Below are positions 50,634 through 63,559 of a stretch of DNA of 64,000 bases, piece by piece (the first letter of the stretch is position 1; every line of letters begins with the position of its first letter). The translations under genes and the position numbers were made by a program. The DNA is taken from contig NZ_CP108106.1 in assembly GCF_041435195.1 (NCBI RefSeq), positions 558,001 to 622,000 on the forward strand. The letters are read 5' to 3'. The stretch comes from Streptomyces sp. NBC_00224 (GTDB lineage: Bacteria > Actinomycetota > Actinomycetes > Streptomycetales > Streptomycetaceae). Under the pieces are notes generated by a model. The model saw only the letters and a program-made list of their open reading frames with translations. It was not told the origin of the DNA and ran no database searches.

Positions 50634-52172
50634 TCAGGGACGCAGATCCGCAGCCAGGCGGGCCGAGCCTGCCACGAGTGAAGCGGTGAACTCGTGCCGC
50701 GGCGCGGTGAGCACCTGCCGTGCCGGTCCCTGCTCGATGAGCTCACCGCCGTCCAGTACGGCGATCCGGGCGGCAGCCGCTGCGGTGTCGAGGTCGTGGG
50801 TGATCAGGACCAGGGCCAGTTCGGGTCGGTCACGCAGCAGGACGGCGAGCGTGTCCAGGAGGCCGCGCCGGGTGACCGTGTCGAGGCCGGAGGTGATCTC
50901 GTCGCAGATCAGCACCCTCGGCCGGGCGAGCAGGGCCCGGGCGAGCGCGGTCCGTTGGAGTTCGCCGCCGGACAGTTGGCCGGGTCTGCGCCGCACCAGC
51001 TCCTCCGTGAGGCCGAGGCCGGTCAGGGTGTTCAGGGCCTCGGCACGAGCCTCTCGTCGGTGCGCTCCTCGCAGCCGTACCGCCGTGCGCGCCACCTGGT
51101 CGACGACCGGTCGGTATTCGTCGAACGCAGCCCTCGCGTCCTGGAAGACGTACTGGACCCCGGCCAGTTGTTCACGGGTCCGGGCGCGCAGACTGCGCGG
51201 GAGCGGGGTGCCGTCGAGCTGGACCTCGCCCCCGTAGTCCCGGTGGAGTCCGGCCAGGCAGCGGGCGAGCGTGGTCTTGCCGCTGCCGGAGCGGCCGACG
51301 ACGGCCAGGCACTCGCCGGCGCGGAGGGTGAGTTCGGGGATGCGCACCACCTCGTTGATACAGGCACCGTCGCGGTGCCGGGCGGTGAGGCCACGTACCT
51401 GGAGTGTCGCGTGTCCATCGCGCGCGGGCGGGCTGTCACCCGTCTTCCCTTCCGCTGCCAGGAGTTCGGCGGTCCAGGGGTGTCGCGGGGCGAGCCACAG
51501 TTGCTTCGCGGGAGCCGCCTCCACCACTCGGCCGCCGCGCATGACCAGAACCTCGTCGGCAAGGGCCCGGACGACGTCCAGGTCGTGGCTGAGCAGGACC
51601 ACGGCGATGCCCTGTCGGGTGACCGCAGCCAGCTGGTCGACGATGTGACGCTTCGTCAACACGTCCTGTCCTGTGGTCGGTTCGTCCGCGACCACCACCC
51701 TGGCGCCGAGCAGCAGTGCCTGTGCCAGGACGGCGCGCTGCTGCTGGCCGCCCGATAGCTGGTGCGGATAGCGGCGCAGCAGGGACTCGCCCTCCGGGAG
51801 CTGCGCGGCCGAGAGAGCGTGCAGGATGCGCGTTCGGGCGGCGGCCCGACGCTCACCTCTGGGCAGGCTCCGCACCTGCTCGCGGGCGATGTCGCGCAGC
51901 AGTGCGCCGACCCGGCGTGCGGGGTTGAGGACGGCGCCCGGGTGCTGGGGTACGTATCCGACGAGGCCGTTGGACACGCGGACGTCGCCGGTCACCCGGG
52001 CGCCCGCCGGGTACTCGCCGAGCAGCGCGAGGCCCGTGGTCGTCTTGCCGCTGCCGGACGCGCCGACGAGCGCGGTGACCTTCCCGGGCAGGACGTGAAA
52101 GCTGACCCCGTCGACGATCGGCCGGCCGTCGATCTCGATGCGTAGGTCCTTGACCTCAGCGACCGCGTTCAC
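50634..52172 (-). CDS. dual-domain ABC transporter ATPase, Opp/Nik type
   Basis: A 512-residue protein with two nucleotide-binding domains in one chain. Each half has Walker A (GASGSGKTT; GRSGSGKTT), signature (LSGGQQQR; LSGGELQR) and Walker B (VVVADEPTT; VLICDEITSG). It energises the importer built by the two permeases upstream (OppB- and OppC-like) and the SBP. Fused ATPases of this kind are frequent in actinobacterial peptide/nickel-type importers. GTG 52172 overlaps the permease 3' end by 17 bases. It is the last gene of the ten-gene operon. Confidence 0.9.
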   Translation of the reverse strand: MNAVAEVKDLRIEIDGRPIVDGVSFHVLPGKVTALVGASGSGKTTTGLALLGEYPAGARVTGDVRVSNGLVGYVPQHPGAVLNPARRVGALLRDIAREQVRSLPRGERRAAARTRILHALSAAQLPEGESLLRRYPHQLSGGQQQRAVLAQALLLGARVVVADEPTTGQDVLTKRHIVDQLAAVTRQGIAVVLLSHDLDVVRALADEVLVMRGGRVVEAAPAKQLWLAPRHPWTAELLAAEGKTGDSPPARDGHATLQVRGLTARHRDGACINEVVRIPELTLRAGECLAVVGRSGSGKTTLARCLAGLHRDYGGEVQLDGTPLPRSLRARTREQLAGVQYVFQDARAAFDEYRPVVDQVARTAVRLRGAHRREARAEALNTLTGLGLTEELVRRRPGQLSGGELQRTALARALLARPRVLICDEITSGLDTVTRRGLLDTLAVLLRDRPELALVLITHDLDTAAAAARIAVLDGGELIEQGPARQVLTAPRHEFTASLVAGSARLAADLRP

Positions 52173-52989
52173 GCCTGTTTCCTCTTTTCCGGTGAGGTTT
52201 CTCCAGTACGGCGTCGAAGAGCAGGTTGCTCCCCATGGTCAGGGCGACGATCAGCAGGGCGGGAACCACCACGGCCCAGGGCTGGACGAACAGCCCTGTA
52301 CGGTTGCGGTCCACCATCACCGCCCAGTCGGAGGCGTCCGGCTCGACGCCGACGCCGAGGAATGCCGCCGTGGCCACCAGGTAGAGCACGCCGGTGAGCC
52401 GTACGCCCGCGTCGGCGGCGAGTGTGCGCGCGATCGACCTGCCGACATAGCCGACCGCCATGCGCCACCACGTCTCGCCCTGCATGCGCAGCGCTTCGAC
52501 GGCCGGGCGGGAGGCCGTCTCGGCCGCGGCCGCGCGGACGATCCGCGCGGCGTCCGGGAAGTTGACCAGGGCCACGAGCAGTGAGAGGCCCACCGCCCCC
52601 GGCGAGAAGGCGGCGGCCACCAGCAGGATCAACAGCAGGGACGGCACCGCGAGCAGCACGTCCACGGGCCGCATCAGCAGCTCTTCGAGCCATGTCCGGT
52701 GGGTGAGCGCGCTGACGAGTCCGAGCGGCAGGGCCACCAGGTAGGACAGGGCCGTCGCGGCCAGGGCGACGAGGACCACGGACCGCCCACCGAGCAGCAC
52801 TTGCCGCCCTACGTCCCGGCCGACGAAGTCGGTGCCGAGCCAATGTCCGCCGCCGAGTGTGAAGGAGGGCGCTCGTGGCCCGGGCTCGCCTGCGAGGAGC
52901 GGCCCGAGCAGCGCCAGAGCGAGCGGTACGGCGACGATCACCAGGCCGAGCACGAAGCGTCCCGGAGGGAGTGCGGAACCCGGCTTCAT
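52156..52989 (-). CDS. ABC transporter permease, OppC/NikC-like
   Basis: A 277-residue inner-membrane permease with the N-terminal helix (FVLGLVIVAVPLALALLGPL), the OppC-type HWLGTDFVGRDVGRQVLLGG phrase and EAA-like loop (EALRMQGETWWRMAVGYVGR), then LYLVATAAFLGVGVEP and further helices. Together with the next permease it forms the channel of the importer. Its ATG overlaps the TGA of the OppB-like gene (ATGA, 52986-52989). Confidence 0.9.
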   Translation of the reverse strand: MKPGSALPPGRFVLGLVIVAVPLALALLGPLLAGEPGPRAPSFTLGGGHWLGTDFVGRDVGRQVLLGGRSVVLVALAATALSYLVALPLGLVSALTHRTWLEELLMRPVDVLLAVPSLLLILLVAAAFSPGAVGLSLLVALVNFPDAARIVRAAAAETASRPAVEALRMQGETWWRMAVGYVGRSIARTLAADAGVRLTGVLYLVATAAFLGVGVEPDASDWAVMVDRNRTGLFVQPWAVVVPALLIVALTMGSNLLFDAVLEKPHRKRGNRRERGR

Positions 52990-53939
52990 GCCGCCGCCCC
53001 CGCCCGCGGCGCGAAGCGGTGGACGACCAGGTCGGCGCCCAGATTGAGGACGACGGCGGTCAGCCCGAAGATCACCGCGAGACCCTGCACCACGGGGACG
53101 TCCCTTTCCGCGACCGCATTCATCAGCACCGTGCCCAGCCCGGGGATCACATACAGCGCCTCCACGACGATGACCCCGCACAGCAACCAGTCGACCGTGC
53201 GGGCGAGTTGCTGGGCGGCCGGCGCGATGGTGTTGGGCAGCGCGTGCGTGTAACGGATGCGGGCGCCGGAGATTCCGTAGCGGCGGGCCTGGGCGACGTA
53301 CGGCGAGGCCAGCGCGTCGATCATGCCCGCACGTACCAGGCGCGCCAGCGAACACACCGGCCGCGACAGCAGGACAAGGAGGGGAAGGACCAGCGCCGTT
53401 GGGTGGCCGAGCAGATCGGTGCCGTATCCGACGGCGGTCGGTGGCAGCCAGTCCAGACGCAGGGCGAACACGGTGACCAGCAGCGTGCCGAAGGCAAACT
53501 CCGGGACCGCGTACACGCCGAGTGTCACCGAGCTGACGAGCCGGTCCGGGAGCCGCCCCTCGTGGCGGGCGGCCAGCACCCCGAGGCCGACGCCAATCGG
53601 AACCAGCAGCATGATCGTGAGCACGGCGAGCAGCACGGTCGGCCCGAAGCCGTCCGCGATGTACGAGCTGACGGGCCGCCCCGAGGCCAAGGATGTGCCG
53701 AAGTCGCCGTGCAGCAGCCCGGCCGCCCAGTCCGCGAGGCGTTCGTGCGCAGGCCGGTCCAGGCGCAGCGTCTCGCGGATGGCCGCGATCCGCTCCGGGT
53801 CGGGCTGGTCGCCGGCGAGGGCGACGGCGGCATCGCCCGGCAGCGCCTCGGTGAGGGCGAAGACGAGCAGGACGACGGCTGCCGTCTGCGCCCCGCCGAG
53901 CAGCAGTCGCCGGGCGAGCCAGGAGCGTAGTGCGCTCAC
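52986..53939 (-). CDS. ABC transporter permease, OppB/NikB-like
   Basis: A 317-residue permease: N-terminal helix ARRLLLGGAQTAAVVLLVFA, the typical LPGDAAVALAGDQPDPERIA region, HGDFGTSLASGRPVSSYIAD, about six membrane segments and the EAA loop (YVAQARRYGISGARIRYTHA, LPNTIAPAAQQL). It starts with GTG at 53939, overlapping the SBP stop. It pairs with the OppC-like permease. Confidence 0.9.
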   Translation of the reverse strand: MSALRSWLARRLLLGGAQTAAVVLLVFALTEALPGDAAVALAGDQPDPERIAAIRETLRLDRPAHERLADWAAGLLHGDFGTSLASGRPVSSYIADGFGPTVLLAVLTIMLLVPIGVGLGVLAARHEGRLPDRLVSSVTLGVYAVPEFAFGTLLVTVFALRLDWLPPTAVGYGTDLLGHPTALVLPLLVLLSRPVCSLARLVRAGMIDALASPYVAQARRYGISGARIRYTHALPNTIAPAAQQLARTVDWLLCGVIVVEALYVIPGLGTVLMNAVAERDVPVVQGLAVIFGLTAVVLNLGADLVVHRFAPRAGAAA

Positions 53940-55528
53940 GCGAGCCAGACCTTGTCGAAGCGTGCCCAGTCGAGGGAGTTGGCGGGTGCCTTCTGCTCGA
54001 CGCCCCGGACACTGCGGGCGGTGCCGAGGATCCAGTCGGCGAAGCCCCAGATCAGGAAGCCGCCCTCGGTGTGCAGGCGGCGCTGCATGCGCTCGTAGAT
54101 GGCGGCGCGCACCTTCTTGTCCTTGGTAGACTGTGCCTGCTGGTACAGGGCGTCGAAGTCCTTGTGCCGCCAGTGGGTTGCGTTGGTGGTCGACCCGGTG
54201 AGCAGGCGCTGGGAGATGTGGGACTCGATGGGCATGGCGCCGGAGCGGTAGGAGGCCAGGGTCCCGGAGTCGAGGATGTCCCTCCAGTAGCTTTCCTTGC
54301 TGCCGGTCCTGATCTCGATGCTCACTCCGGCCTTTGCCGCCTGGTCGCGGAAGATCGCCGCAGCCTCCGTGAACCCGGCCGCGACCGGGGAGGTGTCGAG
54401 GGTGACCTTGAGCTTCTCGGCTCCGGCCTGCTTCAGCAGCTCGCGGGCCCGGTCGAGGTCCTGTTCACGCTGCGGCAGGCTCCCCGCGTAGTACTCATAG
54501 CCCTTACCGAACAGGTCGTTACCGATCCCTCCGGCGCCGGACAGGGCGCCGTCGACCAGTTCCTTGCGGTCGGCGATCAGGTAGAACGCCTCGCGGACCC
54601 GCGTGTCGTCGAACGGAGGCCGGTCGGTCTTCATGACGAAGCCCTGCATGGCGCTGTTGCGCAGTCGGACGATCTGGATCTGCCCCTTGTCCTCGTGGGC
54701 GCGAGCGGTGGCGGGGTTGAGTTCGTGGGCGTACTCGACCTGCCCGCCGAGCAGGGCGTTGGTGCGCGCCGACTCCTCGTTGGCGACGACGAACTCCAGC
54801 TCGTCGAGGTACGGGGCACCGTCCCAGTAGGCGTCGTTGCGCTTGAAGACGGCGGATTTGCCGGGCGCGAAGGACACGAAGCGGAACGGGCCGCTGCCGA
54901 CCGGCTTCTTGTCGAAGTCCTGAGCGCCGTCGGGGACGATGTACGCGCCGAATGCGGCCAGTACGTTGGGGAATTCGGCGGTCGGGCGTTTGAGGACGAA
55001 CTCGATGGTCCGCTCGTCCAGAGCGCGGCTGGCCTTCAGGTCGATGGGCTCCAGCGACGCCTTGGCGCGGAACGCCTTCGCCGGGTCGGTGATGCGGCGG
55101 TAGCTGTAGAGGACGTCCTGGGCGGTCACCGGCTTGCCGTCGTGGAAGGCGGCCTTGCGCAGGGTGACCTTCCAGCGGTCCAGGCCGGCGTTCGGCTCCC
55201 AGGCCGAGGCGAGCCGGGGCTGCGCGGACAGGTCGGATCCATAGTCGGCGAGCTTGTCGAAGAGGGCTTTGGCACGAGCGGCATCGGCGAAGAGGTTGAC
55301 CAGGTGCGGATCGAGGGTCTCGCTCGCACCGCCGCCTGCGAAGGCGGCGCGCAGCCGTCCGCCGCGCTGGGGCGTGCCGTCTGCCTTGGCGGGGTCAGCG
55401 GCGGTGCCGGAGCCGGCGCAGCCTGCGAGGGCGAGCGCCCCGAGTCCGGCGGCGCCGCCGGCGGCGGCGAGGAAGCCCCGGCGGCGCAGGCCGGGCAAGC
55501 GGGAGTCGTTGACGGGGACGTCGTTCAC
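53936..55528 (-). CDS. solute-binding lipoprotein, ABC family 5 (peptide/nickel type)
   Basis: A 530-residue extracellular binding protein. The signal has two adjacent Arg (RRRGFLAAAGGAAGLGALAL, Tat-like) and lipobox LAGC. The mature protein has the SBP family 5 features: LRAAFAGGGASETLDPHLVN, WKVTLRKAAFHDGKPVTAQD, VLYSYRRITDPAKAFRAKAS, and a C-terminal LLKQAGAEKLKVTLDTSPVA. Family 5 proteins bind peptides, nickel or metal-chelate complexes. Being encoded with a biosynthesis set, it should take up the finished, metal-loaded product. GTG 55528 follows AAGGACA. Confidence 0.9.
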   Translation of the reverse strand: MNDVPVNDSRLPGLRRRGFLAAAGGAAGLGALALAGCAGSGTAADPAKADGTPQRGGRLRAAFAGGGASETLDPHLVNLFADAARAKALFDKLADYGSDLSAQPRLASAWEPNAGLDRWKVTLRKAAFHDGKPVTAQDVLYSYRRITDPAKAFRAKASLEPIDLKASRALDERTIEFVLKRPTAEFPNVLAAFGAYIVPDGAQDFDKKPVGSGPFRFVSFAPGKSAVFKRNDAYWDGAPYLDELEFVVANEESARTNALLGGQVEYAHELNPATARAHEDKGQIQIVRLRNSAMQGFVMKTDRPPFDDTRVREAFYLIADRKELVDGALSGAGGIGNDLFGKGYEYYAGSLPQREQDLDRARELLKQAGAEKLKVTLDTSPVAAGFTEAAAIFRDQAAKAGVSIEIRTGSKESYWRDILDSGTLASYRSGAMPIESHISQRLLTGSTTNATHWRHKDFDALYQQAQSTKDKKVRAAIYERMQRRLHTEGGFLIWGFADWILGTARSVRGVEQKAPANSLDWARFDKVWLA

Positions 55529-55584
55529 GTGGGTGTCCTTGCTGTGTGAGCCAATATCGGCGTGGGGGCGACGGCTTGTGGGGT

Positions 55585-56376
55585 TCAGCGGGCGTGCGTG
55601 AGGCGGGCGACGAGATGGAGCCGGTCGGCATCGGCCGTGGAGGCCGGCAGGTCGCCCTCCCGCCACTGCGGCTCCGTACGAGGACCGGGCCCGTCGTACA
55701 GGGCGAGCACCTCGAAGCCGTGAACAGCGAGCACGTGGCGCAGTTCCTGAGGGAAGAGCAGCCGCCACGCGGAGCGCTGCTCGACCGGTGGCGATCCGTC
55801 GTCGGCGGTCCATACACGGGTGCGGCGCAGCAGTTGCGCGGCACGGTCCACGCGCAGGGTGGTGGTGGACCGGTAGGCGGTGCCCTGCCAGGTGAAGCCG
55901 TTGCGGGACGGGCGGTCCAGGAGTGCCGTCCGGCCGAGGAAGAAGGCCCCATTGCGCATCTCGGCGACGAGCAGCCCGCCGGGTGCCAGAGACCGGCGGC
56001 AGGAGGTCAGGAAGCCGTCGAGTTCGTCGTTGGTGTGGCAGTACAGCAAGGCACTGTCCAGGCACACCACGGCGTCGAAGAACCGTTCTGCCAGGTCGAA
56101 TCCACGCAGGTCCGCCCGGATGTACTGAGGACCGGGGTGGTGCACGCGGGCGTGCTCCAGCATCGCCTCGGACAGATCCGCGCCGACGACCGTCCGGCCG
56201 ACCTGGTGCAGATATGCGGCGTCCCGGCCGGTGCCGCATCCGATGTCCAGAACCCGCGGCCCGGCCCCGTGCCGTCGCAGACAGTCCTCGGCCCAGCGCC
56301 CCGCCAGGCGCGCCTCGTCGGGGAAACGGGCTTCGTACAGGACCGGGTTGTCGGTCAGCAGGTTTGTGCTGCTCAT
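55585..56376 (-). CDS. SAM-dependent methyltransferase, class I
   Basis: A 263-residue methyltransferase with SAM motif I VLDIGCGTGRDAAYL and the following VVGADLSEAMLEHARVHHPG, FFDAVVCLDSALLYCHTNDE and SLAPGGLLVAEMRNGAFF motifs. The C-terminal half (RSAWRLLFPQELRHVLAVHG, FEVLALYDGPGPRTEPQWRE) is typical of small-molecule methylases. In the operon it probably decorates the amino-acid product. It starts 10 bases after the MFS stop codon. Confidence 0.85.
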   Translation of the reverse strand: MSSTNLLTDNPVLYEARFPDEARLAGRWAEDCLRRHGAGPRVLDIGCGTGRDAAYLHQVGRTVVGADLSEAMLEHARVHHPGPQYIRADLRGFDLAERFFDAVVCLDSALLYCHTNDELDGFLTSCRRSLAPGGLLVAEMRNGAFFLGRTALLDRPSRNGFTWQGTAYRSTTTLRVDRAAQLLRRTRVWTADDGSPPVEQRSAWRLLFPQELRHVLAVHGFEVLALYDGPGPRTEPQWREGDLPASTADADRLHLVARLTHAR

Positions 56377-56386
56377 GGGTGTCTCC

Positions 56387-57646
56387 TCAGGCCGGCACGG
56401 GTACGGGCGCCGCTTGGGCGGGAAGTACTCGCCGGCGGTGCAGCCAGGCGACGGCGGTGGCGGAGGCGAGTCCGAAGGCCAGGCAGCACGCCCAGGGCAG
56501 CCACTGCGCTCCGGTGCGCCGACCGGCGTCCATGGACCAGCCGACGACCGTGTTGCCGACGGCCGCGGCGATGCCCGAGACCACGTAGAACAGCCCGAAG
56601 TAGGTGCCGGTGAGCTCCGGGCGGCCGAAGCGGGGGATCAGCTCCATGACGAAGGGCTGGGCGATCATGACGCCCAGGTAGAGCAGCAGCGCCCCTGCCA
56701 GGACCGGCAGTGCGCCGAGCGCCGCGTCGCCGACGCCGCCGTGCGCTGTCCCGGCTCCCGCCACCGTCATCGGCGGTATGAAGGACAGCCCCATCAGCGT
56801 GAGCCCCGCGCTGATCCATCGCGCCCGGCTGCCTCTGCTCTTCAGTGCCCGTGTAATGGGCAGTTGCAGCAGAAGGTTGGTGAGGGTGCCGACGAGGAAG
56901 ACGATGCCTGCCGCGCCGTCCCAGCCGGTGGCCCGGCGCGCGCCGTCCGGCAGCAGCAGATACAGCTGGTTCTCCATGGTGAACATACCGACCATGGCAA
57001 CGGCGAACGCCACGAAGCCGCGGTTGCCGATCACCTCTCGCCAGTCCCCCAGGACGCTGTTCGCGGACGGTGTGACCTTGCGCGCCGGAAGCACAACGGC
57101 CTGGGCGACCGTGAGCGCTGCGAAGATCCCGGCCGCGGTGAGCGCGGAGGCGCGGAAGTCGACCAGCAGCAGGGCGCTGCCGAGCAGCGGCCCTATCAAG
57201 GCACCGGTGGTCGCGAAGACGTTGAACAAGGCGAACGCCTCGGCCTTCTGCTCCCCTGCCTCCAGGGCGAGATACGCGCGTACCGCCGGGTTGAACAGCG
57301 CCCCGGCCAGCCCGCTGAGCACGGAGGCGGCCAGCAGCACCGTCAGTCCGTCGCCGAGGGCGAAGAGCCCGAAGCCGACGGTGCGCAGCGCGCATCCGGC
57401 AATGATGACTCCGCGCGCTCCCAGCCGGTCCGATGCCGATCCGCCGATGAGGAACAGGCCCTGCTGGCTGAGGTTGCGTACGCCGAGAACGATGCCGACG
57501 ACAGCGGCCGACAGCCCGAGGTCCTCGTTCAGATGCACGGCGAGGTAGGGAATGAGCAGGTAGAAGCCGGTGTTGACGCCGAGCTGGTTGACCAGGAGGA
57601 GCCGTATCGCGAGGGGGAAGCCGCGTATCTCGTGCCATGTCTTCAC
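56387..57646 (-). CDS. MFS transporter (putative exporter)
   Basis: A 419-residue protein with 11-12 hydrophobic segments: AIRLLLVNQLGVNTGFYLLI, GVRNLSQQGLFLIGGSASDR with the MFS motif A (GGSASDRLGARG), VLLAASVLSGLAGALFNPAV, LFNVFATTGALIGPLLGSAL, and GTYFGLFYVVSGIAAAVGNT. In an operon with biosynthetic genes and a re-importer it is the natural candidate for export of the apo-product. Its ATG at 57646 overlaps the epimerase stop codon. Confidence 0.9.
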   Translation of the reverse strand: MKTWHEIRGFPLAIRLLLVNQLGVNTGFYLLIPYLAVHLNEDLGLSAAVVGIVLGVRNLSQQGLFLIGGSASDRLGARGVIIAGCALRTVGFGLFALGDGLTVLLAASVLSGLAGALFNPAVRAYLALEAGEQKAEAFALFNVFATTGALIGPLLGSALLLVDFRASALTAAGIFAALTVAQAVVLPARKVTPSANSVLGDWREVIGNRGFVAFAVAMVGMFTMENQLYLLLPDGARRATGWDGAAGIVFLVGTLTNLLLQLPITRALKSRGSRARWISAGLTLMGLSFIPPMTVAGAGTAHGGVGDAALGALPVLAGALLLYLGVMIAQPFVMELIPRFGRPELTGTYFGLFYVVSGIAAAVGNTVVGWSMDAGRRTGAQWLPWACCLAFGLASATAVAWLHRRRVLPAQAAPVPVPA

Positions 57647-58698
57647 GCGTGTTCACTCTCCGCTTCGATACGCGGGCGCACGCCGAGGCCGGGGTGGTGG
57701 CTCGTCCGTACGGTGCCGTCGGCGCCGCCGATGCCGGTCCACGGGTCGTGGGCGAGCAGGAGGTGCCCGTCGAGGTCGATCCACCGGGCTCGGTCGGCGA
57801 GATGCACGGCGGGGGCGATGCCGAGCGTGCTGGCGGTCAGACAGCCGAGCATCAGATCGGTGCCGGTACCGGCGATCAGTTCGGCGATCCGCAGTGCTGC
57901 ACTGACGCCGCCGCACTTGGCGAGCTTGACGTTGATTCCCTCGACCCGCCCGGCCAGTCGGCGAGCGTCCTCGTAACCGACCGCGTCCTCGTCGGCGATG
58001 ACCGGCAGCGGCGAGCGTTCGGCGAGTCGTGCCAGCGCCTCGGGGTGGCCGGGTTCGATCGGCTGCTCCACGGCCTCGATTCCCAACTCCGCGAGGCGGG
58101 GCAGGAGTCGCTCCGTCGTGGCAACCGTCCAGGCTCCATTGGGGTCCAGGAGCAGTCGAGCGTGGGGAGCCGCGGCACGCACGGCCCGTACGCGCTTCAG
58201 GTCGTCCTCGGGGTCCGGTGCCCCGGCCTTGATCTTGAGGACCGAGAAACCGTCCCGTACCAGGCGGGCGGCCTCGGCTCCGGCCCGTATCGGCGACGTG
58301 ATGCCGATGGTGCGGGCGGTCGCGGCGGACGGCCGGGCGGAGGTACCCAGCAGTGCGTGGACCGGGATGCCTGCGCGCTTGCCCAGGAGATCGAGCAGCG
58401 CGGACTCCACGGCCGCGATCACGGCGGGCGGTGTGCCTTCCCGGCCTCCGTTGCGCAGGGCCTCCAAGGCACTCCCCGGTTCGGCGAAGCGTGTCAGCCA
58501 CTGGGACTCCGCGTGCAGCAGACGTCCGAGTGTGTCGGCATCGAGGCCGTAGTACACGCTGGTGACGGCCTCTCCTCGGCCGAGTTGGCCTTCGTGTTCG
58601 ACGAAGAACCAGACGGCGTCGCGGGCCGCCATCGTTGAGCGGGATATGCGCAGCGGCTCGGTGAGTTGGAGACGCACGGTGCGCTGACTGACTTTCAC
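57643..58698 (-). CDS. enolase-superfamily enzyme, dipeptide-epimerase-like
   Basis: A 351-residue protein of the mandelate racemase/muconate lactonizing group. The barrel carries the catalytic pattern of dipeptide epimerases: KIK (K155, K157), LLLDPNGAW (D185), EQPIEP (E211), IADEDA (D236) and NVKLAKCGGV (K258). The N-terminal capping domain (ISRSTMAARDAVWFFVEHEG, AVTSVYYGLDADTLG) is complete. Family members invert the alpha-carbon of dipeptides or of N-acyl amino acids. Here it would set the stereochemistry of an amino-acid-derived chelator. GTG 58698 has GGAAGAG upstream and overlaps the preceding stop. Confidence 0.85.
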   Translation of the reverse strand: MKVSQRTVRLQLTEPLRISRSTMAARDAVWFFVEHEGQLGRGEAVTSVYYGLDADTLGRLLHAESQWLTRFAEPGSALEALRNGGREGTPPAVIAAVESALLDLLGKRAGIPVHALLGTSARPSAATARTIGITSPIRAGAEAARLVRDGFSVLKIKAGAPDPEDDLKRVRAVRAAAPHARLLLDPNGAWTVATTERLLPRLAELGIEAVEQPIEPGHPEALARLAERSPLPVIADEDAVGYEDARRLAGRVEGINVKLAKCGGVSAALRIAELIAGTGTDLMLGCLTASTLGIAPAVHLADRARWIDLDGHLLLAHDPWTGIGGADGTVRTSHHPGLGVRPRIEAESEHA

Positions 58699-59786
58699 GG
58701 GCTCTCTTCCAAACGTGGGGTTCGGCTGTGCAGCGGGTCGGTGACGGCGCGGCACCGGGCCCAGCCGGTGGCCTCGACAGCCCGCGGATGCGGGATCTCG
58801 ACCGGGCGAGTGGCGGCGGTGGCCGGTTCGAGCCCGTGAGCGGCGGTGAAGTCGTCGTCGTAAACGCTGCCGAGATAGCGGTGCGGCCCGTCGGGGAAGA
58901 CGGTGGCGACGACGGCTCCCGGGTGGACACGAGCGGCCCAGGCCGCCACGAGCGCGACGGCTCCGGTGCTCCAGCCGCCGCTGACGAAGTTACCGACGGC
59001 GAGCTTTCGGCAGGCGTCCGCGGCCTCGGCCGGGCCGACCCAGTGGACTTCGTCGAAGGCTTCGTAGGCGACGTTGCGCGGATGGATGCTGCTGCCCAGG
59101 CCGCGCATCAGACGCGGCCTGGCCGGCTGGCCGAAGATCGTCGAGCCGGTGGCGTCCACACCGATCAGCCGGAGCCCGGGCCAATGCCTGCGCAGCGGTC
59201 CGACCACACCGGCGCTGTGGCCGCCGGTACCGACGCTGCACACCAGCACGTCCAGGTGGTCGAGCTGTACGGCCAGCTCGGCGGCGAGGGAGGCGTAACC
59301 GGCGATGTTGTCGGGGTTGTTGTACTGGTCGGGCCAGTAGGCGTCCGGCAGCGTCGAGAGCAGTTCGCGCAACCGGGCCAGCCGGGCGGCCTGCCAGCCG
59401 CCTTCGGCCGCCGCGCGGTCGACCAGCTCCAGCTGGGCCCCGTATGCGCGCAGCAGTTGTCGCATCGAGGGCTCCAGCTCTGTGTCACCGACCAGAACGA
59501 TCGGATGCCCGAGAGCCTGGCCGGCGAAGGCCAGCCCGATGCCGAGCGTTCCGGACGTGGACTCCACCACCGGGGCCCCGGGCCGCAGCTCGCCGCGCTC
59601 CTTCGCGCCGAGCAGCATGGACACGGCCGCTCGCGCCTTCATGCCGCCGACGCCGAGACCTTCCAGCTTGGCCCAGAAGCCGGGCTGCGGGCAGGGCAGG
59701 TCGACGGTGATGCGGGCGAGGGGGGTCCGGCCGAGCAGGGTGAGCAGTTCGCGGTTGCCCGCGGGGCTGAGGACGGCCGTGGTCAC
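58695..59786 (-). CDS. PLP-dependent cysteine-synthase-fold enzyme, SbnA-like
   Basis: A 363-residue fold-type II PLP enzyme. The Schiff-base Lys is in GLGVGGMKARAAVSM (K50), the substrate loop is ESTSGTLGIGLA, and the phosphate-binding loop is SVGTGGHSAG. It resembles SbnA-type enzymes, which join O-phosphoserine and glutamate to N-(1-amino-1-carboxy-2-ethyl)-glutamate on the way to 2,3-diaminopropionate. No SbnB-like dehydrogenase gene is in the operon, so the coupled amino acid itself may be the building block. GTG 59786 overlaps the DUF364 gene stop. Confidence 0.85.
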   Translation of the reverse strand: MTTAVLSPAGNRELLTLLGRTPLARITVDLPCPQPGFWAKLEGLGVGGMKARAAVSMLLGAKERGELRPGAPVVESTSGTLGIGLAFAGQALGHPIVLVGDTELEPSMRQLLRAYGAQLELVDRAAAEGGWQAARLARLRELLSTLPDAYWPDQYNNPDNIAGYASLAAELAVQLDHLDVLVCSVGTGGHSAGVVGPLRRHWPGLRLIGVDATGSTIFGQPARPRLMRGLGSSIHPRNVAYEAFDEVHWVGPAEAADACRKLAVGNFVSGGWSTGAVALVAAWAARVHPGAVVATVFPDGPHRYLGSVYDDDFTAAHGLEPATAATRPVEIPHPRAVEATGWARCRAVTDPLHSRTPRLEESP

Positions 59787-60634
59787 AGGGCGGCTCCGGA
59801 GCGCTCACCGGCGCCGTAGCGGTGGATGGTCCCGGGCCCGCCGTCGAGCCAGAAGAAGGGGTACGGCTCCGCGCACACCGCGCTGACTCCGGCGCCGATG
59901 AGGCGCGGCAACACCGCGCTGCCGGTCTGGGCGAACATCACCAGCGGCTTGCCGTGCCGCAGTGCGTGTTCGCGCAGCGGCTCGAAGCTTCCGTTGCCGA
60001 GCGTCATACCCGAAGCGAGGACGGCGTCGCAGCGCTCCAACTCCGCCAGCGCGTCGGTCCGTACCGGCTCGCCCCACTCCGTGGTGCCGCCCTTGAAGTC
60101 GCAGGGTATGTACGCCAGTCCACGCGCCCGCAACGCCTCCAGCAGCGAATTGACCACGCCGACCACGAGCACGGTGCGCCCTGGGCCGACGTCGAGCAGA
60201 CCGGTGACGGCCTTGGCCCTCGCCCGGGACTTCTCCAGCGAGCTCCCGGCGGGGAGCGGACACGGCCGGGCGCCGCTCGCGGAACGATGGGGAAGCACGT
60301 GCATCAGGTAGGCGTCCAGTGCGGCCACCCGTACCGGCAGCAGTTCATGCGCCATGAGCCGGGCGACGTCCACGCCGACACAGTCGTCGACGGCGCCGTC
60401 GGGGAGCCCACCGGGCTCGACCGCGCACGAGCCCACGGCTTCGGCCAGCCTCAGGCTGAGCACTTCGTTGCGGTAGCAGCCGCCGCGCCCGTCGTGCCGT
60501 ACGGCCTGGCGCGTGGTGAACGCCATCGCGATCCGCTCGGTCCTCGGGTCGGACCCGAAATCACCGCGGAGCACACGGTCGACGAGTTCGTCGTACGAGG
60601 CCGCGGTGAGGTTCGCGTGGGTGACGGCGGTCAT
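59783..60634 (-). CDS. DUF4213/DUF364 family protein (putative heavy-metal chelation)
   Basis: A 283-residue protein with the two-domain DUF4213-DUF364 layout: the N-terminal part (SYDELVDRVLRGDFGSDPRT, CVGVDVARLMAHELLPVRVA) and a Rossmann-like C-terminal part (VLVVGVVNSLLEALRARGLA, RCDAVLASGMTLGNGSFEPL, KPLVMFAQTGSAVLPRLIGA, EPYPFFWLDGGPGTIHRYG). The family is linked to heavy-metal chelation in the domain databases, without proven function. Its place between the SbnA-like enzyme and the ATP-grasp ligase, with four-base overlaps on both sides, argues for a role in chelator biosynthesis or metal handling. Confidence 0.8.
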   Translation of the reverse strand: MTAVTHANLTAASYDELVDRVLRGDFGSDPRTERIAMAFTTRQAVRHDGRGGCYRNEVLSLRLAEAVGSCAVEPGGLPDGAVDDCVGVDVARLMAHELLPVRVAALDAYLMHVLPHRSASGARPCPLPAGSSLEKSRARAKAVTGLLDVGPGRTVLVVGVVNSLLEALRARGLAYIPCDFKGGTTEWGEPVRTDALAELERCDAVLASGMTLGNGSFEPLREHALRHGKPLVMFAQTGSAVLPRLIGAGVSAVCAEPYPFFWLDGGPGTIHRYGAGERSGAAL

Positions 60635-61887
60635 CGGCCGACCACCTTCGGGCAGAGCGCCGAGAGCAGCGTCTCGACCCGGTCGCGAGCCGCGAGGCCC
60701 TCGGCGTCGCCGGCCATGACGTGGCCCAGGTACTCGTTGTTGCTGCCCGCCTCCTTGACGGCTGTTCCGGGCTCGGCCAGCTGGATCTCCAGCACGTCCG
60801 TCGCCGTGCGCACGTCGTCGGCGCCGTCGATGGACTCCAGCACTCCCTCGGTGTCCGGCACCAGGAACCCGATGGCGGCACTGTGCAGGCCGGTGGCTCG
60901 TCGGCGCAGGTCCGGTTCTCGGCCGAGGGCCACATCTACGCAGGCGGCGGCGAGATCGACCCCCGTCACATGACGGACCAGTTCGGTGATGCGGTTGCCG
61001 GCGGGGCGGGGGTTGACCTCGACCACCCGGGGCCCATCGGCTGTCAGCTTGATCTCGGTGTGTGCCACGACCCCGTCCAGTCCGAGGGCCTTCAGCGCCT
61101 GAACAGCCGTCTCCGCGGCCGCCTCGGCGTCGGCGGCAGCGAGCGCCGCGGGGAACATGTGGCCGGTCTCGATGAACGCCGGCGCCCCGCCGACGCTCTT
61201 GTCGGTCACCCCGACCACCTGCGCCGTTCCGGCGAACGACACGGTCTCGACGCTGACTTCCGGCCCCCGGAGCAGTTCTTCGAGCAGGACCACGGGCTCA
61301 CGGCGCTGGCCTCGCGCGTTGACGGTGAAGTCCGCGAGCGCCCGGTAGGCGCGGGCCAGGTCCGACTCGTCGTCGACGCGCCGGACGAACATCCCGGCGC
61401 ACAGGTCCACGGGTTTGAGCACGAGCGGGTAGCCGATCTCCCGCGCCGCACCGGCGGCCTCGGCCCAGTCCGCGCAGACCGCGTAGCGGGGCCCCGGCAC
61501 TCCGGCCTCGGCAAGGACACGGCGGGTCGCGTCCTTGCGGCACGCGTTCTCGACCGCCGCGGAGGAAGGACCTGGCAGCCCCAGACGGCCGGCGATCCGT
61601 GCGGCCGTCGGGAGGTAGTAGTCGCAGGAGGTGATCACCCCGTCGAAGCCCAGCACACCGTGGGCGCGCTCGACCAGGGGCAGCAACGTCCCGACTTCGT
61701 TGGTGTCGGCGGTCAGCACATTGTGCGCCGCGAGCAGCGGGTGCGCGGTGCCCTCAGGAGCGGAGCGCAGGTAGTGGTGCAGATCACGGGTGAGGAACGT
61801 GAACTCGTGCCCGCCCTCGCGGATCGCTCTGGGCAGCAGCCTGCTCATCGATCCGACCCAGCTCTCGACCATCAGCAGATGGGACAC
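60631..61887 (-). CDS. ATP-grasp ligase (amino-acid/peptide type)
   Basis: A 418-residue ATP-grasp enzyme: N-terminal GFDGVITSCDYYLPTAARIA with GLPGPSSAAVENACRKDATR, the ATP-binding lid YPLVLKPVDLCAGMFVRRVD, the central VVLLEELLRGPEVSVETVSF, and the metal-binding HTEIKLTADGPRVVEVNPRP. It should form an amide or peptide bond between an amino acid carboxylate and an amine through an acyl phosphate, with no NRPS. It is the first gene of the operon; the Fur/Zur-like box at 61996-62014 lies about 110 bases upstream of ATG 61887. Confidence 0.85.
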   Translation of the reverse strand: MSHLLMVESWVGSMSRLLPRAIREGGHEFTFLTRDLHHYLRSAPEGTAHPLLAAHNVLTADTNEVGTLLPLVERAHGVLGFDGVITSCDYYLPTAARIAGRLGLPGPSSAAVENACRKDATRRVLAEAGVPGPRYAVCADWAEAAGAAREIGYPLVLKPVDLCAGMFVRRVDDESDLARAYRALADFTVNARGQRREPVVLLEELLRGPEVSVETVSFAGTAQVVGVTDKSVGGAPAFIETGHMFPAALAAADAEAAAETAVQALKALGLDGVVAHTEIKLTADGPRVVEVNPRPAGNRITELVRHVTGVDLAAACVDVALGREPDLRRRATGLHSAAIGFLVPDTEGVLESIDGADDVRTATDVLEIQLAEPGTAVKEAGSNNEYLGHVMAGDAEGLAARDRVETLLSALCPKVVGR

Positions 61888-61995
61888 GGCTTCCTCTTCT
61901 CAGAACGCGGGATGAACGCATGACGCGTCGGCAGCACCGCAGCACCCGCCCGGGGCCGCTCGGGGCTGCTCGGCTTGACGCAGCCACACGTTATC

Positions 61996-62014
61996 GACAA
62001 TCGTTTTCATTGTC
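61996..62014. promoter_or_regulatory. Fur-family operator-like box, Zur-type candidate
   Basis: GACAATCGTTTTCATTGTC contains a perfect 6-7-6 inverted repeat (GACAAT / ATTGTC) in an AT-rich island. It matches the classical 19-bp Fur box at 13 positions, and the 15 bases read on the other strand (TGAAAACGATTGTCG) match the actinobacterial Zur core TGAAAATGATTTTCA at 12 positions. It is between the divergent start codons of the ten-gene operon (61887) and the peptidase gene (62021), so it may control both. The named metal is an inference. Confidence 0.7.
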
Positions 62015-62020
62015 ATCTGA

Positions 62021-63559
62021 ATGCCTGTCGACTCTCTGAATGCGAGACCCGTGACTCCCGCTGCACGCCACCGGGCCGTTCTGTCCGCCCTCGCGGCCAC
62101 CATCGCCGCCCTGGCCCCGGCCACCCCTGTCCAAGCCACCACCACCCCGGCACCATCCCCGCGTTTCGGTCCCTGCCCGGAGTCCGTACCGGCCCCGGCC
62201 TCTCCCGCGCAGGTGGAGTGCGGATCGCTGAGCGTCCCGCTCGACTGGGAACGCCCGGACGGCGAGCACATCCGCATCGCCGTCTCGCGCGTACGCGCGT
62301 CCGGACCGCCCGAGGAGCGGCGCGGCATTCTGCTGGTGAACCCGGGCGGACCCGGCGGGCCGGGGTTGGCCTACGCCGTCACCAAACGGGCCAAGCTGCC
62401 CGAGAGCGTGCGCCGCGCATACGACGTCATCGGCTTCGACCCACGCGGCACCGGGCAGAGCGCGCCCGCGGACTGCGGCCCGATGGGCGGACTCTTCGAC
62501 CGCCCCGGACCCGAGCCCGTACCGTCGGGCCGCGCCGCGGAAAAGGCGCACCTCGACTCGTTGAGGCGTATGGCGGACGACTGCGCGGCCGGCGTCGGCG
62601 ACGCGCTGGTGCATCTGTCGACCACTCAGACCGCCCGGGACATGGACGCCATACGCTCCACACTCGGCGAACGGCGGATCGGCTTCCTGGGCATCTCCTA
62701 CGGCAGCTACCTCGGCGCCGCCTATGCCGCCCTGTTCCCGCAGCATGTCGGCCGTATGGTGCTCGACAGCGTCGTCGGCCCCTGGCAGTGGTACGACTTC
62801 GACCTGCGGCAGAGCCGGGCATTGCTGCGCCAGCGCGATGTGTTCTTCACCTGGGTCGCCCGGCACGAACAACGCTTCGGCCTCGGCGGCAGCGCCGGTC
62901 AGGTCCGTTCCGCCTACATGCGGGCGCGTCAGGAACTCGCCGCCCGCCCCGTGGACGGCATCGGTCCTGCCGAGTTCGACCGTGCCGTGTACCGATCGCT
63001 CGGCCGCACGGAACGCTGGGAGGACCTCGCGGCGGGCATCCATGCCTACCTGCACGACGGCAGCACCGAACTCCTGCGCCCCGCCGCCCCCTTCGACGGC
63101 GCCGCGTCACGTACCTATGAGTCCGCGAACCGCGTCGTGAAGTGCGCTGACGGGCCCGGCCCGACGCCGGGCCGCGTCACGGCCGACCTCCGGCGCCTGC
63201 GGCGTCTCGACCCGCACCCGATCGTCACAGGAATCGAAGCCTCGGCTTGCTCGTACTGGCACCACATACCCACCCAGAACACCCGGCTCGGCGGCCCCGA
63301 GGTGCCCCCGGTGCTGCTGATCGCCTCCGAACACGACCCCGTCACACCCGTCGAGGGCGCCCGGCAACTTCGGAAGCGGCTGCCCGGCTCGCGCCTGGTC
63401 ACGCTCTACGACGACTACTCGCACGGCGTCTTCGCCAGCCGGGGCAACGCGTGCGTGGACGGCACCGCCGCCGCGTATCTGATCGACGGGACCGTCCCGT
63501 CGACGGATGTGCACTGCGCGGGCCCCGGCCTTCCGGCGCTTCGGGTCCCCAGCGAATGA
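62021..63559 (+). CDS. secreted alpha/beta hydrolase, tripeptidyl aminopeptidase (TAP) type
   Basis: A 512-residue secreted peptidase (502 if GTG 62051 is the start). Signal peptide AVLSALAATIAALAPATPVQ; family start CGSLSVPLDWERPDGEHIRI, oxyanion region LLVNPGGPGGPG, nucleophile elbow FLGISYGSYLGAAYA (G-x-S-x-G), acid region LLIASEHDPVTPVEGARQL and catalytic His in YSHGVFA, all matching Streptomyces TAP/SlpD-like enzymes. It removes N-terminal tripeptides or acts as an exopeptidase. It is divergent from the metallophore-like operon and the Zur-like box lies directly before its ATG, so metal-responsive control is possible. Confidence 0.85.
   Translation: MPVDSLNARPVTPAARHRAVLSALAATIAALAPATPVQATTTPAPSPRFGPCPESVPAPASPAQVECGSLSVPLDWERPDGEHIRIAVSRVRASGPPEERRGILLVNPGGPGGPGLAYAVTKRAKLPESVRRAYDVIGFDPRGTGQSAPADCGPMGGLFDRPGPEPVPSGRAAEKAHLDSLRRMADDCAAGVGDALVHLSTTQTARDMDAIRSTLGERRIGFLGISYGSYLGAAYAALFPQHVGRMVLDSVVGPWQWYDFDLRQSRALLRQRDVFFTWVARHEQRFGLGGSAGQVRSAYMRARQELAARPVDGIGPAEFDRAVYRSLGRTERWEDLAAGIHAYLHDGSTELLRPAAPFDGAASRTYESANRVVKCADGPGPTPGRVTADLRRLRRLDPHPIVTGIEASACSYWHHIPTQNTRLGGPEVPPVLLIASEHDPVTPVEGARQLRKRLPGSRLVTLYDDYSHGVFASRGNACVDGTAAAYLIDGTVPSTDVHCAGPGLPALRVPSE

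Follow-up and report, generated by a model that had tools for sequence, protein, structure and literature searches.

The window analysed here is a 64,000-nucleotide stretch of Streptomyces sp. NBC_00224, positions 558001-622000 of contig 1 in a 9.18-Mb three-contig genome, and our subject is a block of ten genes within it, A to J, together with the Zur-type box in front of them. The genes occupy positions 50634-61887 of the window on the minus strand, all ten reading frames are intact, and we predict that they form one operon. Neighboring genes overlap at seven of the nine junctions, by 17 bases at I/J and by 4 at A/B, B/C, C/D, D/E, G/H and H/I; 10 bases separate E from F, and the start of gene G is best placed at the GTG at 55528, which gives a gap of 56 bases between F and G. 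The initial annotation, made from the letters alone, had described ten tightly packed genes, and that description holds. Its list of families is backed by Pfam and NCBIfam for all ten genes with one correction, in that no DUF4213 was found by Pfam at E <= 0.001 among the operon proteins, where DUF364 (PF04016) alone is matched.

Gene content and conservation of the operon

Genes A to D and F encode putative biosynthetic and tailoring enzymes. Gene A (60631-61887, 418 residues) specifies an ATP-grasp ligase whose matches to ATP-grasp_4 (PF13535) and to the L-amino-acid-ligase C-terminal domain LAL_C2 (PF18603) both lie above cut-off, which places it with the L-amino acid ligases; its nearest solved structures are the L-amino acid ligase BL00235 (3vot) and BacD, and the best 120 relatives listed bear generic names such as "ATP-grasp domain-containing protein," "biotin carboxylase" and "carboxylate--amine ligase." The product of gene B (59783-60634, 283 residues) is a DUF364 protein that scores above the Pfam gathering score for PF04016 and has the two-domain fold. 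Gene C (58695-59786, 363 residues) encodes an SbnA-like enzyme of the pyridoxal phosphate (PLP)-dependent PALP family. Its top NCBIfam model is SbnA (TIGR03945), at 238.9 bits and under the cut-off of 349.95, so that by score it is not assigned to SbnA; its nearest solved structure is SbnA itself (5d87), its PLP lysine is invariant in 100 of 100 aligned sequences, and the position aligned with SbnA residue 185 is glycine in all 100. Gene D (57643-58698, 351 residues; MR_MLE) encodes an enolase-superfamily enzyme of the dipeptide-epimerase type that can be aligned to solved dipeptide epimerases and their relatives. A KxK motif, Asp/Glu/Asp metal ligands, a second Lys and a DxD motif, which we take to be the motifs of dipeptide epimerases, are constant over 96 aligned rows, one of which has gaps in three of these eight columns. 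Gene F (55585-56376, 263 residues) encodes an S-adenosylmethionine (SAM)-dependent methyltransferase (PF13649, E 8.6e-20) with SAM-motif residues that do not vary among the 94 sequences aligned. Neither nonribosomal peptide synthetase (NRPS) modules nor an IucA/IucC synthetase of the NRPS-independent siderophore (NIS) pathway was found by Pfam in the ten operon proteins.

The remaining genes concern transport. Gene E (56387-57646, 419 residues) encodes a major facilitator superfamily (MFS) protein (PF07690, MFS_1, E 1.1e-30) that would act as an exporter. Gene G (53936-55528) encodes a solute-binding lipoprotein of family 5 (PF00496, SBP_bac_5, E 4.1e-79) with RRxFL and LAGC signal features at its N terminus, its nearest paralog in the same genome being only 30% identical. 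It is followed by two ATP-binding cassette (ABC) permeases, of the Opp/Nik B type in gene H (52986-53939) and of the C type in gene I (52156-52989; both PF00528, BPD_transp_1), and by an importer ATPase of 512 residues in gene J (50634-52172), a fused double protein with two ABC_tran stretches whose top NCBIfam model, NikD, is matched below cut-off.

The order of these genes is kept across sequenced Streptomyces. Scanning a single genome from each species gave 504 relatives, the best 80 of which were kept as named loci, all from Streptomyces except one Wenjunlia record; all ten genes stand in order in 72 of these, and the other eight are truncated, L166 by a run of N and the rest by contig ends. 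Among the fetched loci of the high-identity group, 19 of 20 likewise hold all ten genes in order. Sampling of 392 Streptomyces genomes found DUF364 in 172 and a close ortholog, of about 70% identity or more, in 98 including the present genome (counted by hand, with at most six candidates scored per genome), the next listed matches being at or below 45%. Across the phylum, sampled with 396 genomes, the DUF364 profile (E <= 1e-20) matched six genomes and one of 236 genera, and gene A matches of at least 74% identity were confined to the genus.

The operon promoter and its Zur-type box

Upstream of gene A lies the 15-base core operator TGAAAACGATTGTCG (61995-62009, minus strand), delineated by 96 promoters, by comparison with znuA and by a published motif, and it is a predicted Zur site. 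The box sits within the spacer between the -35 and -10 elements of a promoter predicted at 61988-62016 on the minus strand (-35 ATGACA at 62011-62016, -10 TAACGT at 61988-61993, 17-base spacer), which appears to be of the HrdB type. From relatives we collected 100 promoters, 96 of them distinct, the named and unnamed sets overlapping in some species. Their consensus is (A)TGACA-ATGAAAAYGATTATCGA-TANNNT, with the box contained in the 17-base spacer and with frequencies of 1.00, 0.86 and 0.85 for the T, A and T of the -10 element in the 96-promoter matrix. The box is recognizable in all 96, the best match covering 13-19 of 19 letters at 17.4 bits or more; the palindrome that the initial annotation had placed in this range is thereby conserved across relatives. 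The published Zur motif of Streptomyces coelicolor is tGaNNatSatNNtCa, a 15-bp 7-1-7 arrangement (PMC5472717), and the window box agrees with it at 9 of the 11 specified letters, with two mismatches, close enough to count as a Zur-regulon motif.

The sequence of the same genome at the 5′ end of znuA carries TGGAAACGATTGTCA and TGAAAATGACTGTCA, both closely similar to the operon box. This znuA is followed by a Fur-family gene. The genome encodes four Fur-family proteins, and the one specified by this gene reaches 264 bits in comparison with S. coelicolor Zur (3mwm). We built a matrix from the operon promoters only and then applied it to other sequence. Because the promoters of the ten-gene loci, hereafter type I, are the training set, independent support comes only from znuA, from the ribosomal protein gene for L28 and from other DUF364 clusters. 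The matrix finds a site at all 29 znuA upstream regions used (36 genomes had a match and 30 loci were fetched, L255 being dropped for a split hit), with scores of 28-30 bits in nine regions from another family of the order, including a 28.4-bit site in each of L246 and L254, and of 1.9-17.9 bits in 20 from the genus. Over 779,540 bases from 40 loci (20 of type I and 20 other DUF364 loci), merged matches of at least 14 bits fall at all 20 type I operons, at the heads of 19 of the 20 other DUF364 clusters, in front of an additional FecB-type gene of L062 and directly before two L28 genes; just three more places reach 1.9 bits. The L28 genes behind a Zur-type box are L043:15446-15773, which immediately follows the last gene of the operon, and L062:19012-19298, the former identified by Pfam and the latter by 82% identity to it. 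In S. coelicolor, the L28 gene rpmB2 is counted among the members of the Zur regulon (PMC6103462).

Since the box matches znuA and L28 promoters, zinc is favored over nickel or iron as the signal. At the operon itself, the best match to an iron box has nine mismatches and that to the nickel Nur pattern tried has four. The initial annotation had called the box Zur/Fur-type and had taken it to point to a metal; the znuA promoters of this genome and its relatives, together with those of L28, narrow the call to Zur. We regard the cross-detection of znuA, L28 and other DUF364 promoters as the strongest single argument, at the level of sequence, that zinc is the likely signal.

The 5′ leader between the promoter and gene A (61888-61993, minus strand) and many orthologous leaders look able to fold a GC-rich hairpin. 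The arm-pairing signal is weak (45 of 96 leaders), and RNAalifold gave no consensus and Rfam no match for the leaders.

Other DUF364 clusters and neighboring genes

More than 70 genomes have a low-identity DUF364 match, and from these we chose and fetched 20 loci (L059-L078). A gene C match lies near DUF364 in all 20, at 26-32% identity; matches to A, E and F at E <= 1e-5 occur in none, and D is matched weakly in one. The PALP family was confirmed in L061, L065 and L067, and SbnA was the top NCBIfam model for the two enzymes tested, those of L065 (135 bits) and L078 (129 bits), below cut-off in both. The loci fall into two types; a few representatives were annotated, and tblastn with these assigned the remaining loci. 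Type II (10 loci) combines DUF364, a PLP enzyme and an MFS protein, with a putative 255-residue methyltransferase in seven loci, PhyH in three and an Opp-type importer in three; type III (10 loci) comprises FecB, FecCD, ABC, DUF364, GHMP kinase and PLP genes. The Opp-type importer proteins of L061, L064, L065 and L070 (type III) are 44-51% identical to G-J, as against the 30% that separates gene G from its nearest paralog in the present genome, and the best 120 relatives listed for the type III DUF364 protein carry generic names only. A second DUF364 match was found in 5 of 98 type I genomes versus a low-identity match in 72 of 294 others (p 7e-6, phylogeny uncontrolled; counted by hand, with two weak matches excluded from 74 and the second match listed for three of the five), as if one DUF364 system per genome were enough. 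Since types II and III share DUF364 and the SbnA-like enzyme with type I, this pair appears to be a common biosynthetic core, and the two enzymes presumably build one unit that the three products share. These two further Zur-box cluster types sharing the pair are new here.

Also new is a companion of the operon that was absent from the initial annotation, a divergent TAP-like alpha/beta hydrolase (62021-63559, plus strand; PF00561 and PF08386; alternative in-frame GTG start at 62051). Of 100 loci, 92 had more than 1.5 kb upstream, and in 52 of these the hydrolase gene is divergent and 86-276 bp from gene A; all 53 hydrolase matches found were placed divergently. Because its start adjoins the operator, the gene is probably under the same Zur control. 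Its N terminus resembles a signal peptide by eye, and the protein is probably secreted; it might release peptides that carry metal, or the metallophore may be its substrate. On the other side of the operon, the exo/endonuclease-phosphatase and PIG-L genes of the window had matches in none of the 19 loci that reach 2.9-4.4 kb past gene J, the only loci in which this comparison is fair.

Two other loci, L132 and L133 (genomes G657 and G095), place an ATP-grasp gene 37-38% identical to gene A beside SbnA-like genes (37-38%); DUF364 went unmatched in the stretch read. In L133 there are two further ATP-grasp matches, and a 1361-residue NRPS-like protein with AMP-binding, PP-binding and thioesterase domains (L133:10963-15048) stands beside the ATP-grasp and SbnA-like genes; the product of this locus is possibly another of the diaminopropionate type. 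Within the present genome, two ATP-grasp matches at C1:72505-73326 and C1:8839053-8839874 have equal score and identity and are mirrored on opposite strands of the 8,912,376-base contig, an arrangement suggestive of terminal inverted repeats that span some 73 kb or more.

A candidate zincophore pathway, its alternatives and known systems

We think it probable that the ten genes constitute a Zur-repressed, NRPS-independent zincophore operon that is not of the opine type. The gene order, the Zur box, the make-export-import set and the unchanged catalytic residues all speak for a zincophore, and from them we infer the product, its metal binding and its response to zinc, along with each chemical step and the order of steps. 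With zinc plentiful, Zn-Zur bound between -35 and -10 would block transcription, and a shortage of zinc would allow the ten genes to be expressed. The gene C enzyme would join an activated serine, probably O-phosphoserine, to the amine of an amino acid to give a diaminopropionate-type secondary amine with carboxylates; as the operon has no SbnB-type dehydrogenase, we propose that the secondary amine is kept rather than cleaved. DUF364 may work on this building block, the ATP-grasp ligase would add an amide bond to yield a dipeptide, the enolase-type enzyme would epimerize the dipeptide, and the methyltransferase would methylate the product, which the MFS protein would send out of the cell. The Tat-type lipoprotein would then capture the zinc complex for uptake through the Opp/Nik-type transporter.

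A broader proposal, which we judge to be evenly balanced, is that zincophores built around DUF364 and the SbnA-like enzyme, independent of NRPS and under Zur control, form a class not yet described, in which Streptomyces would have three or more architectures and DUF364 would act on a shared aminopropionate unit. Within such a class, the type I product would carry a peptide bond, an inverted stereocenter and a methyl group, a combination that to our knowledge occurs in no described zincophore.

Several observations weigh against reading the operon as a zincophore system. The SbnA, NikD and Cnt models are matched only below their cut-offs, the transport direction of the MFS protein is assumed, and DUF364 is without an established reaction in the part of its structural description that we draw on (PMC2954201). 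A search of the genome for the 15-base core pattern gave 16 places versus 12 for a reversed control, so the window box on its own would not convince. One locus, L056 (3712-9338), keeps A-D and the box and is without E and G-J; a different methyltransferase follows A-D there, and gene F is matched only weakly. L070, one of the 20 type II and III loci, has no box, and the transport and tailoring genes differ in type II and type III clusters.

The alternative that survives best, and that we still consider unlikely, is that zinc only times the production of a diaminopropionate-containing, peptide-like antimetabolite or antibiotic, the importer serving for peptides or product recycling. BacD-type L-amino acid ligases, going by the PDB name of BacD, make dipeptide antibiotics, and in L132 and L133 ATP-grasp and SbnA-like genes are paired where the stretch read gave no match to DUF364, in L133 next to an NRPS-like gene. 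Against this, no resistance gene was seen among the ten, importer and Zur box occur together in all uncut loci examined but L056, where just the box is retained, and the core is shared with other Zur-box clusters, half of them with FecBCD-type importers. Slightly more doubtful is a chelator for nickel, cobalt or another metal served by a NikABCDE/Opp-type importer. The four importer proteins do have nickel-type top NCBIfam models, every one below cut-off, and DUF364 neighbors in other phyla involve several metals, according to the part of the study consulted (PMC2954201), but the box matches Zur sites and departs from the Nur pattern tried by the four mismatches given above. A catabolic or recycling operon that takes up D-amino-acid dipeptides or cell-wall peptides for use by the epimerase, ligase and PLP enzyme would suit the Opp-type importer, the adjacent TAP-like hydrolase and the best NCBIfam match of gene D, the N-acetyl-D-Glu racemase DgcA (below cut-off), yet it is very improbable given the conserved Zur box and the poor fit that an ATP-consuming ligase, a methyltransferase and an MFS exporter would make.

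Only a few chemical families of secreted chelators are known to serve zinc acquisition. Should the zincophore reading hold, roughly one Streptomyces species in four (98 of 392 in the sample) carries a further family; its enzyme set leads to direct predictions that can be assayed and would place DUF364 in the context of a reaction. There is practical value in zinc-binding aminopolycarboxylates too, as illustrated by [S,S]-ethylenediaminedisuccinic acid (EDDS), a biodegradable substitute for ethylenediaminetetraacetic acid (PMC9252823), and by aspergillomarasmine A, which sequesters zinc and so inhibits metallo-beta-lactamases (PMC8319579). No description of the operon was found in searches of one open-access library (subscription papers lie mostly outside it), in keeping with the earlier suggestion that it had possibly not been described before.

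Among known systems, gene B shares its fold with the DUF364 proteins Dhaf4260 (3l5o) and PH1506 (3npg) at 14% identity. A role for DUF364 in metal-chelator synthesis was proposed from structure and genome context, and the partners seen here, an SbnA-like enzyme and a Zur box, are not mentioned in the part of that study consulted (PMC2954201). The make-export-import layout resembles that of the staphylopine, pseudopaline, bacillopaline and yersinopine systems, opine-type zincophores with an MFS or other exporter and an Opp- or FecCD-type importer (PMC7438024). Unlike those, the ten proteins have no Pfam or NCBIfam match to nicotianamine-synthase-like (CntL) or opine-dehydrogenase (CntM) families, and the initial exclusion of a staphylopine-type system stands. 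Gene C recalls SbnA of staphyloferrin B by top family model and nearest structure and differs in falling below the SbnA cut-off, in an operon without an SbnB-like gene. The coelibactin cluster of S. coelicolor is NRPS-based. As a Zur-controlled metallophore cluster of the same genus (PMC6103462, PMC5472717), it resembles the present operon in regulation and general type. A chemical model for gene C, likened by chemistry and not by sequence, is the fungal aspergillomarasmine A synthase, a single enzyme that converts O-phosphoserine and aspartate to a zinc-binding aminopolycarboxylate (PMC8319579); that system has this one enzyme and is without ligase, epimerase or DUF364.

The closest comparison is with EDDS, and here the initial verdict of "not EDDS-type" stands only in part. 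An SbnA-like step belongs to EDDS synthesis and is thus probably shared. The ATP-grasp ligase and dipeptide epimerase would not be expected there. EDDS is an aminopolycarboxylate, and aminopolycarboxylic-acid metallophores are a named class (PMC10486106). EDDS of Amycolatopsis japonicum is Zur-controlled and made outside the NRPS and NIS pathways (PMC4993170), and the operon described here, with Zur control predicted from its promoter and neither NRPS nor NIS enzymes, is like it in both respects.

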